From: an uncultured Clostridia bacterium
GTDB lineage: Bacteria; Bacillota; Clostridia; Oscillospirales; Ruminococcaceae
DNA: 15,344 nt
Direction: 5' to 3'
Assembly: GCA_946183095.1 (NCBI GenBank)
Contig: CAMHBE010000013.1
Coordinates: 1-15,344, forward strand
The translations under genes and the position numbers were made by a program. Below are positions 9,572 through 12,224 of the stretch, piece after piece. The notes under the pieces are model-generated. The model was not told the DNA's origin. It worked only from the letters and a program-made list of their open reading frames with translations, and did no database searches. Position 1 is the stretch's first letter. Every line of letters starts with the position of its first letter.

Positions 9572-11974
9572 TTATTTGCCGTTCTTGACGGTAAAGCCGT
9601 TGATGCTGAGCGCTGCCTTTGCGGTGAACTTGCCGCCGACCTCGCTGTTTCCGTCGATCACGAGATCGTTGGAAACGGTCAGGTTCTTCGCGATCTTAAT
9701 TTCGCCGTTGAGCGTTGTTGCGCCCGCCTTTGCGGAAACGGTTATCGACTCGTACTCGCCGCCGTTGACCGTGAGAACGCCCTTTGCCGAAAGCGCGCCC
9801 ATTTTGCAGCTGTCGAGGGTCGCTGTGTTCGCCACAGCCGCTTTGCCCTCTACGGTAACGTTCGTCAGCTTCGTTTCGCCGGTCTTTTCGTTAAGCGTCA
9901 GCGCACCGTATATCTCGCAGTCGGAAATGTCCGCGTGACCGGTAACTGTCGTCTTGCCGAATTTGGAATTTTCAGCTGTGAATGCTTTCTTGACGGTAAT
10001 TGCCGCAGCGCCCTTTTTGCCATTGACTGTTACGTTTTCGAGCTTTAGGCTGCCCTTTGCGGTTATCGAGGGGACGGTGATGAAGGACTCGGTTGCGGCT
10101 TTCAGCCACACGGTCGTGTCGGGGAGTGAAAGTGCTTTCGCTTCATTCATGTCGCCGCTGAACTTTATGGTGTACAGCGTGCCGAGCTTCTTTGCCTTTG
10201 CGTCGGCGTTTATCTTTGCGACCGCTTCGCCTATGGTCTTGCAGTCCTTGTCTGCGCCTACTTCTATTACTGTTCCCTCGTCGATAACGGGCTTTTCCTT
10301 GACGGTCACTTCAAACGTTGCTGTCTTGCCCTCGTATGTAACGGTTATCGTCTTTGTGCCTGCCGTCGTGCTGTCAAAGCCGGTGCACATTTCCGCTGTC
10401 AGGTCGATAGTCTCGGCTTCTTTGCCGCCGGTGTATGTAACTGTGAGCTTGCCGCCGGTAACGTCAAAGGTGTCACCGACTGTGTATTCGGTCTTTGTGG
10501 GGACGGTCGATACGGTGACAGTATCAACTGCAATAACAGGCTTCTCGGAAACAGTCACATCGAATGTTGCTGTCTTGTCCTTGTATGTAACTGTAACGGT
10601 CTTGGTGCCGACCTTCTTACTGTCAAAACCCGTACACATATCGGCGGTAACATCTACAGTTTCCTCGGGGGTCATACCCGCATATTTCGCTGTTACCTTT
10701 GCTCCGGTAAGGTCAAGTTCCTCATTCAGCACATAGTTCGTCTTTGTGGGAGGGGTGAGGGTGAATTCCGTTACATAGTCGTTTATTGTCGCGTCGGTGC
10801 AGAACACGGCGGCATCGGGGTTGAGGCAATGAGTTGTACCATTATTAGCTTCGATAAAGTCTTCCCACTGTGCTTTTGTTCCCTCGTATGTAATATCGGT
10901 GATCATTATAGGGTTGCTTAATGAGTTATTATATCCAAATGCGTGAGAGCCTAATGTAGCTACACTTGTCGGTAATGTTAAGCTCCGGATAGCTGTACTC
11001 GCCAAAAAGGCATATTTCTGTATTGTGGTAACAGCTCTGCCTAAAATAACCGTATCAAGACTCGTGCAATAACCGAATGCCTGTTCACCGATCGATGTGA
11101 CATTATCCGGAACAGTCACATTTTTTAATAACTTGCAGGCATTAAATGCCTTTTTACCGATCGTTGTTACCTGTTCCGGAATAGTTATTTCAGTAAGTGA
11201 AGAACAGCTATTGAACAACTCATCCCCTATACTTTCGATCTTTGAGGGGAGCTGTACGTTTGTAAGAACAGAACAGCCGCTGAACACTGAGTTTCCGATA
11301 GTATCGACAGTCTCAGGTATAATAATTGACGTGAGCTTAGTACCCGCAAAAGTTCCGTCGTTTATGGTTGTGATACCGGAACCGATAGTTACCGCTTCAA
11401 GTTTTGAGCAGCCGTTGAAAACATTTGCGCCAAGATTAACAACACTGTCGGGCAAAGTTACCTCGGCAAGGTTAGTGCAGTTTCTGAACGCGCCTTCGCC
11501 TATATTGATAAGTTTACTGCCAAATTCTATATTTTTAAGCGCTGTACAGCCTAAAAAAGTCCCGCTTCCGATAAACTGGAGATTCTTTCCGCCTTCTACT
11601 GTAACAAGGCTGGTGCATTTTCTGAAAGCACCTTTGCTGGAAGAAGCGACACCGTCATTAGTAGAAGGAGAGCCATCGACGATCGTAGTAACGCTGTCTG
11701 GGATTATGACCTTTACAATAGTAGTGTTTTCGGCAAATACACTATTAGCAATCGTCTTTACCGCACCGGGAATAGTAACTTCGCTGTCTGTTCCTGTATA
11801 TCCTGTCAGCACTCCGTCCTCGATGATAAAGCCGTTCTCGTCAGCTTCCGCCGCGTCAACCGCTGCGATAGCCGGTTCATCATAATCCGCGTTAGTAACC
11901 ACCGTTCCCGCCGCAACGCCTGCCGTCAATGTCAATGCAAGAGCGAATGACATTATTTTGTTGATCTTCTTCAT
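9572..11974 (-). CDS. BspA-like leucine-rich repeat secreted protein with Ig-like and beta-helix-like domains
   Basis: 800 residues from ATG 11974, chosen because GGAGG lies eight bases upstream and the product then begins with a signal peptide (MKKINKIMSFALALTLTAGV...). An upstream ATG at 12067 lies in the leader RNA and would bury the signal. Residues about 50-355 hold 11-12 LRR_5/BspA repeats of roughly 23 residues (pattern AFxxCxxLxxVxIPxxVTxIG). Residues about 402-562 are two tandem Ig-like (Big_3-type) domains with the repeated MCTGFDS...GTKTVTVTY core. Residues about 565-800 are short repetitive beta strands resembling a right-handed beta-helix. I see no LPXTG, SLH, dockerin or transmembrane anchor, so it is probably released or held non-covalently. 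BspA-type proteins bind host proteins or surfaces; here the ligand is unknown. The gene is monocistronic and lies behind a structured leader RNA. Confidence 0.9.
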   Translation of the reverse strand: MKKINKIMSFALALTLTAGVAAGTVVTNADYDEPAIAAVDAAEADENGFIIEDGVLTGYTGTDSEVTIPGAVKTIANSVFAENTTIVKVIIPDSVTTIVDGSPSTNDGVASSSKGAFRKCTSLVTVEGGKNLQFIGSGTFLGCTALKNIEFGSKLINIGEGAFRNCTNLAEVTLPDSVVNLGANVFNGCSKLEAVTIGSGITTINDGTFAGTKLTSIIIPETVDTIGNSVFSGCSVLTNVQLPSKIESIGDELFNSCSSLTEITIPEQVTTIGKKAFNACKLLKNVTVPDNVTSIGEQAFGYCTSLDTVILGRAVTTIQKYAFLASTAIRSLTLPTSVATLGSHAFGYNNSLSNPIMITDITYEGTKAQWEDFIEANNGTTHCLNPDAAVFCTDATINDYVTEFTLTPPTKTNYVLNEELDLTGAKVTAKYAGMTPEETVDVTADMCTGFDSKKVGTKTVTVTYKDKTATFDVTVSEKPVIAVDTVTVSTVPTKTEYTVGDTFDVTGGKLTVTYTGGKEAETIDLTAEMCTGFDSTTAGTKTITVTYEGKTATFEVTVKEKPVIDEGTVIEVGADKDCKTIGEAVAKINADAKAKKLGTLYTIKFSGDMNEAKALSLPDTTVWLKAATESFITVPSITAKGSLKLENVTVNGKKGAAAITVKKAFTAENSKFGKTTVTGHADISDCEIYGALTLNEKTGETKLTNVTVEGKAAVANTATLDSCKMGALSAKGVLTVNGGEYESITVSAKAGATTLNGEIKIAKNLTVSNDLVIDGNSEVGGKFTAKAALSINGFTVKNGK
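10289..10786 (-). repeat. Tandem duplication encoding two Ig-like domains (249-bp period)
   Basis: Matching blocks (for example GTTGCTGTCTTG at 10317 and 10566) are 249 bp apart, that is 83 codons. The two encoded copies share PTKT(N/E)Y, MCTGFDS and GTKT(V/I)TVTY(K/E). The copies have diverged at synonymous and non-synonymous sites, so the duplication is not recent. Confidence 0.85.
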
Positions 11975-12004
11975 TGTGATATCCTCCAATAATTTATTCA
12001 GTGC

Positions 12005-12037
12005 AAAATAAAAATGCGCGGCAATTACAACCGCGCA
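12005..12037 (-). terminator. Intrinsic terminator inside the leader of the BspA-like gene
   Basis: On the minus strand TGCGCGG (12037-12031) pairs with CCGCGCA (12021-12015) around a nine-base loop, followed by TTTTTATTTT (12014-12005). It ends 30 bases before the start codon of the downstream gene. No promoter fits between the two, so the gene must depend on read-through. Confidence 0.88.
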
Positions 12038-12189
12038 CTGTAAAAATGCAGTTGTAACTGTCGCCAAACATCACAAATATCCGAGCCTATAGACCACCCG
12101 AAGACTGCATCCTTACCCAAGCAAGGATGATCTATAAAGCACAGAATATTCGTGAGAATATTTCGGAATATTAAATTGTGATGTTTGGC
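12005..12189 (-). ncRNA. Structured 5' leader RNA, candidate riboswitch or attenuator
   Basis: Read on the minus strand, the predicted transcript starts with GCCAAACATCACAA (12189-12176). This pairs perfectly over 14 bp with TTGTGATGTTTGGC (12076-12063). Inside are a 7-bp hairpin AATATTC/GAATATT with a TCAC loop (12162-12145), an 8-bp stem TATAGATC/GGTCTATA (12136-12129 with 12095-12088), and directly stacked on it ATCCTT/AAGGAT with an 8-base loop (12128-12109). A C-UUCG-G tetraloop segment lies at about 12108-12096. After the closing stem, CAGTTACAACTGC (12060-12048) can pair over 13 bp with GCGGTTGTAATTG (12034-12022). That pairing destroys the terminator stem, as an antiterminator would. 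I compared it from memory with the common riboswitch and T-box consensus motifs and saw no match. Confidence 0.72.
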
Positions 12190-12195
12190 AATTAT

Positions 12196-12224
12196 ACTAT
12201 ACCACATTTTTCAGGAAATTGCAA
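12196..12224 (-). promoter_or_regulatory. Promoter of the leader RNA and BspA-like gene
   Basis: On the minus strand TTGCAA (12224-12219), a 17-base spacer and TATAGT (12201-12196) with a TGG extended -10. A second, overlapping TATAAT lies at 12196-12191. Start at the usual distance from TATAGT falls at about 12190-12189, the first base of the closing stem of the leader RNA. Confidence 0.75.

Follow-up and report, generated by a model that had tools for sequence, protein, structure and literature searches.

The leader RNA that precedes a BspA-type gene on the minus strand of the window (the whole stretch of 15,344 nt of DNA that was analysed) is most probably a cis-acting transcription attenuator, belonging to an RNA family that lies outside Rfam and is spread over the window's class. 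The attenuator is probably riboswitch-like. Comparison of the window copy with its relatives shows five conserved helices, namely the closing stem (P1), an apical hairpin (x:y), a long-range pairing (y:z), an antiterminator (AT) and an intrinsic terminator (T), as well as the overlap of these helices and the placement of promoter and gene around them. Sensor and expression platform are both so well conserved that the complete switch can be traced through covariation.

The leader in the window

The features of the window copy are collected in Table 1. The initial annotation had described a good promoter with its start at the first base of a 14-bp stem, an intrinsic terminator 30 bases ahead of the start codon, and a 13-bp antiterminator pairing. 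All three were recovered: the promoter is of the sigma-A type and P1 is perfect from 12189, the terminator lies between promoter and gene, with the ATG at 11974 located 30 nt past the end of the leader, and the coordinates given for the antiterminator proved exact, its 13 pairs including G-U. In the window, the pairing y:z shares bases with the antiterminator as well as with the apical hairpin. The switch design proposed earlier, terminator versus antiterminator, was right in this opposition, while the extra exclusive pairing y:z had been overlooked.

Table 1. Features of the leader region in the window (positions are those of the window).
Feature	Position	Strand	Remarks
Promoter of sigma-A type, extended -10	12196..12224	-	TTGCAA-17-TATAGT, TG ahead of second hexamer
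Leader RNA, predicted start to U-tract	12005..12189	-	Folding; R1 match at 12010-12189
P1, 5' strand, 14 pairs	12176..12189	-	Top-ranked segment in tree-aware scan
P1, 3' strand	12063..12076	-	Pairs with 12176-12189, 14/14 perfect
AAUA, P1-arm loop, candidate binding site	12169..12172	-	Consensus positions 13-16; window coordinates by eye
Side hairpin AAUAUUC-UCAC-GAAUAUU	12145..12162	-	Computed fold; varies among members
Arm helix (12138-12125 with 12099-12086) plus enclosed part	12086..12138	-	Pairing search
Strand x of apical hairpin x:y	12121..12129	-	CAUCCUUGC pairs with GUAAGGAUG
Strand y	12104..12116	-	Partner x via 12116-12108, or z via all 13
Strand z	12040..12052	-	Partner y; shares bases with antiterminator 5' strand
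Antiterminator (AT), 5' strand	12048..12060	-	Pairing search and covariation
Antiterminator, 3' strand	12022..12034	-	Shares bases with terminator stem
Intrinsic terminator (T) hairpin, 10 pairs, 7-nt loop	12013..12039	-	12039-12030 with 12022-12013
U-rich tract behind terminator	12003..12014	-	Sequence
Shine-Dalgarno GGAGG	11983..11987	-	Sequence
BspA-type LRR gene with Big_3 domains, 800 aa	9572..11974	-	LRR_5 3e-71, Big_3 1.5e-24 (Pfam)

Folding of 12190-12000 (minus strand) gave -71 kcal/mol (z = -7.2), with 0/200 shuffles as good. Since the opposite strand of the leader also folds well (z = -6.4), the strand is not given by fold energy, and it was set by the promoter, the U-tract and the ORF. 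Among 2,000 dinucleotide shuffles of the window copy, a P1 as long arose by chance in three, an antiterminator as long in two, and the long-range y:z pairing (12116-12104 with 12052-12040, 13 pairs) in eight.

The BspA-type protein would be secreted, to judge from its N-terminus. Its nearest named relatives are a Ruminiclostridium record and a Lachnospiraceae record, so that the class hosting the family is taken to be, probably, Clostridia. Behind the BspA gene, also on the minus strand, a terminator-like hairpin was noted (9555-9526), right after which a 12-of-12 consensus promoter with TG starts (9516-9488). This promoter precedes an ORF that we take to be ClpS-like, followed by a ClpA/B-like AAA protein (Pfam) and then by a presumably Aat-like ORF; the three genes perhaps represent an N-end-rule cluster.

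Search for relatives and spread of the family

A blastn search of 149 relatives identified six near-full-length homologues in the genus (74-80% identity), and seven further homologues that matched in part were found, by reading, to share the leader architecture. Two covariance models were then available: R1, built from 12 leaders, and R2, built from 51 leaders from outside the genus and three from inside, which contained neither the y:z nor the AT pairs. At E<=0.01, R1 matched 34/71 genomes of the genus, 28/297 of the family and 88/295 of the order, and at E<=0.001 it matched 78/391 genomes of the class, these four genome samples being overlapping ones. R2 located 123 places in 35/71 genomes of the genus, with up to nine copies per genome. 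Among 398 genomes of the phylum (E<=1e-4), the sole R2 match was the window's own genome; of the remaining 397 genomes, 14 or more belong to the same class or nearer. Judged from this phylum sample, whose share from outside the class is unstated, the family is likely to be missing beyond the class.

The window's genome (72% complete) harbours three copies, one in the window and the others at C261:218-393 and C46:9936-10095. These other two were found through the covariance models, blastn giving short scraps only, and each of them lies ahead of an ORF with a signal-peptide-like start. The match at C46:9936-10095 is weak (1e-3); one script recovers all four of P1, y:z, AT and T there, and another drops this copy on account of a weak P1 start.

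With two leaders as blastn queries, no match was obtained in a plasmid collection. Among phages, blastn matched two phage-labelled faecal scaffolds, of which one bears a full member (MT835845.1, positions 2077-2229, L242; 149 bits) ahead of a lipoprotein-like ORF. This is an unannotated scaffold from human faeces, deposited as 'Bacteriophage sp.'. A fixed pattern search of IMG/VR found no member. One named BspA relative (L039) shows a terminator-like hairpin before its gene, within 126 nt of upstream sequence, and R2 matched neither this locus nor L040.

Several loci comprise tandem units. In L126 (G015:C42, 153-1072, minus strand) four units are arranged head to tail, each with promoter, leader and terminator, the last one followed by an ORF that the contig end cuts short. 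L212 has three units, and L206, L219, L221 and L182 have two each. Such arrangements could serve dosage or stepwise control, or could be free RNAs.

Conservation and covariation

The consensus of the family reads GCgACAcAA..AAUAUU.. arm ..x UUUUUA-loop-GGUAAAAAUGCA gGCUCU-UUUUcG.. UUGUGUcGC AGCAAUcgGAGcUuUGCAUUUUUCGGUGCGcgGCUUcGGCUGCGCACUUUU. The AAUA of the P1-arm loop is 82-99% conserved and lies outside the conserved helices, and the side hairpin is missing from the computed folds of several shorter members. Upstream of the leader, the promoter logo of 115 genus rows shows TTG at -35 to -33 in 82-94% and TRTGnTATAAT at -17 to -7, the spacing from promoter to P1 being fixed among the genus loci.

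In 54 class-wide leaders, 95.3% of the cells were paired in the structure with y:z and T, with 25 double-changed pairs (0/500 shuffles as high), and 92.1% in the structure with x:y and AT, with 23 double-changed pairs. For both structures, 0/500 shuffles reached the observed value on any of five measures, and slid versions paired in 33-62%. By element, the paired cells amounted to 99.8% for P1, 80.6% for the arm, 95.8% for y:z, 96.3% for a CUC/GAG toehold, 99.4% for T, 92.2% for x:y and 91.9% for AT.

Relatedness can mislead shuffles, and for this reason a tree was built and the mapped substitutions were re-dealt along it. The resulting tree-aware scan covered 10,152 six-pair segments in 109 leaders, which stem from 100 of the loci, and was set against 60 null alignments. 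The five highest ranks went to P1, T, x:y, y:z and AT, each of which scored above every segment of the null alignments; the next segments had an E of at least 0.05, and the toehold segment by itself was not significant (E 1.8). The alignment had been made with a model that included P1, x:y and T and lacked y:z and AT. On the same alignment, tests of single pairs against Fitch-based nulls gave one to three pairs at E < 0.05, and in one such test the nine best-scoring pairs were all located within P1, x:y or T. We read the weak single-pair result as low power, and the claim of covariation rests on the segment test, which was run after the single-pair tests. The structured leader of the initial annotation had implied covariation among homologous leaders, and this was found for five helices, in the tree-aware segment scan and in the pair counts of the 54 leaders.

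Scoring of y:z and AT was performed on 185 distinct leaders, 15/203 rows having been dropped. The median y:z score was 27.4 with the leader's own partner, 22.6 with a partner swapped in from another leader, and 15.6 after shuffling; the corresponding medians for AT were 28.4, 20.8 and 13.8. All 20 shuffles were beaten by 153/185 leaders for y:z and by 156/185 for AT. In some copies neither y:z nor AT is clear, and the 110-nt member L066 is without y:z. The antiterminator is conserved class-wide, covaries, and is exclusive with the terminator by overlap, which bears out the terminator/antiterminator architecture as it had been proposed.

In nine loci (L011, L012, L014-L017, L041-L043), a second complement of the 5' flank of the terminator was observed after the terminator and before the start codon. 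It pairs about UUUACRGUGCGC with GCGCACCGUAAA (by eye) and ends beside the Shine-Dalgarno; a short form of it is present in the window near 12040-12035 and 12004-11999. This second complement would possibly add a translational layer in one subgroup.

Comparison with known RNA families

Rfam 15 gave no match at the gathering cut-off, either in the window or on the leaders of 40 further loci. Relaxed E values were applied to a 351-nt stretch of the window (E<=10) as well as to loci of the genus (20, E<=0.5) and from outside it (20, E<=0.3), and on the leaders these searches returned chance-level matches only. MicroRNA models over L097 and L105 (E 0.2) fell far below their cut-offs, and a TarB model on L239 (E 0.99) was at chance level. 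In L239, Gut-1 gave a match below threshold that lies roughly 200 nt ahead of the leader, and it was set aside as a separate repeat; in this locus, Gut-1-like repeats of 26 and 33 bits (cut-off 50) were noted at 1781-1930, which is some 115-265 nt upstream of the leader. The T-box model matched neither the window nor the scanned leaders in the Rfam searches. The c-di-GMP riboswitches (GEMM-I and GEMM-II) have been reported, in the portions of the literature covered, to control surface proteins of Gram-positives, and the scanned leaders match neither of the two Rfam models (c-di-GMP-I and c-di-GMP-II).

The portions of the literature covered (including PMC8632094, PMC2864571, PMC6429828 and PMC8040213) contain no description of the leader family. 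To judge from sequence comparison, the leaders form a class-wide, covarying RNA family that is absent from Rfam 15. A motif survey of 2017 reportedly presented 224 motifs.

With transcriptional riboswitches that end in an intrinsic terminator, the leader shares its position as a 5' mRNA leader, a folded sensor-like domain, and an antiterminator and terminator that exclude each other; it differs from them in y:z, a third exclusive pairing between the sensor hairpin and the antiterminator. With trp-type attenuators (1:2/3:4 versus 2:3) it has in common a series of strands in which the partner may be the strand before or the strand after. Unlike these, it has five strands and a pseudoknot, formed where y:z reaches from the P1 domain to a distant strand, and no leader peptide was seen among the window's ORFs of at least 60 aa.

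Genes downstream of the leaders

Downstream ORFs were sought at the loci with enough flank (104/115 in the genus and 86/88 outside), an ORF being accepted if it had at least 60 aa, lay on the same strand, was preceded by a Shine-Dalgarno and started no more than 130 nt from the terminator. Such an ORF was present at 94/104 genus and 66/86 outside loci (160/190 together), with a median gap between leader and ORF of 39 nt and 25.5 nt, respectively. On the divergent side, which served as control, ORFs were present at 21/104 and 13/86 loci. According to a crude rule, 77/103 genus and 39/69 outside ORFs have a signal-peptide- or membrane-like start, and a lipobox was identified, again crudely, in 24 genus and 13 outside ORFs.

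The Pfam scans covered 99 genus and 65 outside proteins, 4/103 and 3/68 of the listed ORFs being left out. LRR_5 was found in 21/99 genus and 11/65 outside proteins, LRR_8 in 16 and nine, and Big_2 in 17/99 genus proteins. By these counts, the class-wide family is not confined to BspA-like genes; its copies also precede Ig-like domain proteins and lipoprotein-like ORFs. The set of downstream genes is, by its predicted products, broad, with mostly envelope and secreted proteins. A cytosolic-looking minority comprises SLOG/YpsA (four proteins), AMP-binding (two) and DUF6364 (two); in the DUF6364 group, L173 shows sub-cut-off matches to ribbon-helix-helix. The leaders L090, L091, L123 and L130 are located ahead of similar 176-aa proteins, of which that of L090 is SLOG/YpsA-like, and these are probably the four YpsA-matching proteins of the genus. 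The nucleotide-binding fold (SLOG/YpsA) could be a hint at the signal. Three loci from three families (L214, L227 and L239) have similar proteins of 77-78 aa behind the leader, and those of L227 and L239 matched neither Pfam nor PHROGs.

Proposed mechanism and signal

Transcription is predicted to begin at the first base of P1, and the transcript would then present five strands in the order x, y, z, a (the terminator 5' arm) and t (the terminator 3' arm), with two exclusive pairings. As z resembles x, y would be able to pair with either of them; as z with its upstream bases can pair with y or a, and a with z or t, two states are expected. In the direction of switching that we infer, y is held by x in the first state, and z plus the preceding bases would pair with a (AT) before t exists, leading to read-through. 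In the second state y:z would pair, perhaps starting at the CUC/GAG toehold beside the apical hairpin, and a would be freed for t, leading to termination. The P1-arm domain probably acts as the sensor and would govern the release of y, and a small-molecule or protein signal may act at the AAUA loop and bulge, the AAUA of the P1-arm loop being the best guess at a binding site.

When the transcript of the window copy is folded, AT has formed by nt 168, ahead of the terminator 3' arm; with each hairpin taken in isolation, AT exceeds T in stability in 138/179 leaders. From 176 nt onwards, the best fold computed for this leader contains T and not AT, so that a read-through default, switched off by y:z, is something we infer from the order of folding. 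All fold computations were made without pseudoknots, and y:z, which is one, formed part of none of them.

Regarding the signal, GGDEF genes are present in 71/71 genus genomes, and their presence does not discriminate. The number of leader copies correlates with that of GGDEF genes in the genus (Spearman 0.76, and 0.56 after genome size, with kinship ignored), which is only a lead for the signal. LoaP is unsupported as a regulator in the genus, with 0/71 genomes above the NF033641 cut-off and weaker matches in 65.

Alternative explanations

The effector of the same attenuator might be a protein, a ribosome or a tRNA instead of a small molecule. The logic of the switch gives no hint of the effector's nature, and many known attenuators are switched by proteins, which makes this a genuine possibility, albeit one well short of an even chance: LoaP, a known RNA-dependent antiterminator protein, stays below its cut-off throughout the genus, the T-box searches were negative as described above, and the minus-strand ORFs of at least 60 aa over the leader in the window show no leader peptide. 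These ORFs are the BspA frame, whose open stretch reaches back as far as 12067, and one of 60 aa that starts at 12207, upstream of the predicted transcription start. It is rather unlikely, in turn, that the family has already been published or catalogued and merely stands outside Rfam. The faecal catalogue of Fremin and Bhatt 2021 (PMC8040213) contains 3,161 unnamed candidates, of which the leader may be one, and the SLH motif (Stav et al. 2019, PMC6429828) is also a riboswitch candidate ahead of surface-protein genes, Clostridia included; in the portions covered, however, neither source names a candidate of the leader's size before LRR or lipoprotein genes. In the covered part of its source, the SLH motif has 80 examples, is tied to SLH domains (about 60% lie before SLH-domain genes) and reaches Synergistaceae and Negativicutes, and by this description the leader would seem distinct from it. 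SLH is, moreover, not among the 25 most frequent of the 60 downstream Pfam families in the genus, nor among the 25 most frequent of the 48 outside it.

A free-standing small RNA acting in trans, with the adjacent gene incidental or read by leakage, would likewise have its own conserved promoter and terminator; the tandem arrays of complete units would suit it equally, and 10/104 genus and 20/86 outside testable loci have no same-strand ORF within 130 nt. It is nonetheless an improbable explanation, given the same-strand ORFs with a Shine-Dalgarno in 160/190 loci at the median gaps reported above, and given a covarying antiterminator overlapping the terminator, which a free RNA would not evidently need. 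A MITE-like DNA repeat, mobile or palindromic, in which the P1 strands would be terminal inverted repeats, could account for the perfect inverted repeat, the several copies per genome, the good folding of both strands and the weaker opposite-strand echoes given by the covariance models. Such a repeat is very hard to reconcile with conservation that reaches past P1 into promoter, antiterminator and terminator, with internal helices that covary at class distance, with the single orientation of the copies before genes, and with the negative plasmid search with two leaders, and we assign it next to no probability.

Implications

A cis-acting attenuator encoded ahead of the genes it would control is our preferred reading. 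It may further constitute a riboswitch of a new class, which would respond to some global signal, perhaps a cyclic dinucleotide, and would tune the surface and secreted proteome class-wide (probably in Clostridia) through a five-strand, toehold-started strand exchange involving the sensor hairpin, the antiterminator and the terminator; this extension is tentative, and we see its chances as slightly below even. As this family illustrates, current libraries of RNA families can lack even a conserved RNA that is widespread. If its members answer a common signal, one RNA would tie that signal to surface building in many bacteria, and the signal would be within reach of standard ligand screens.
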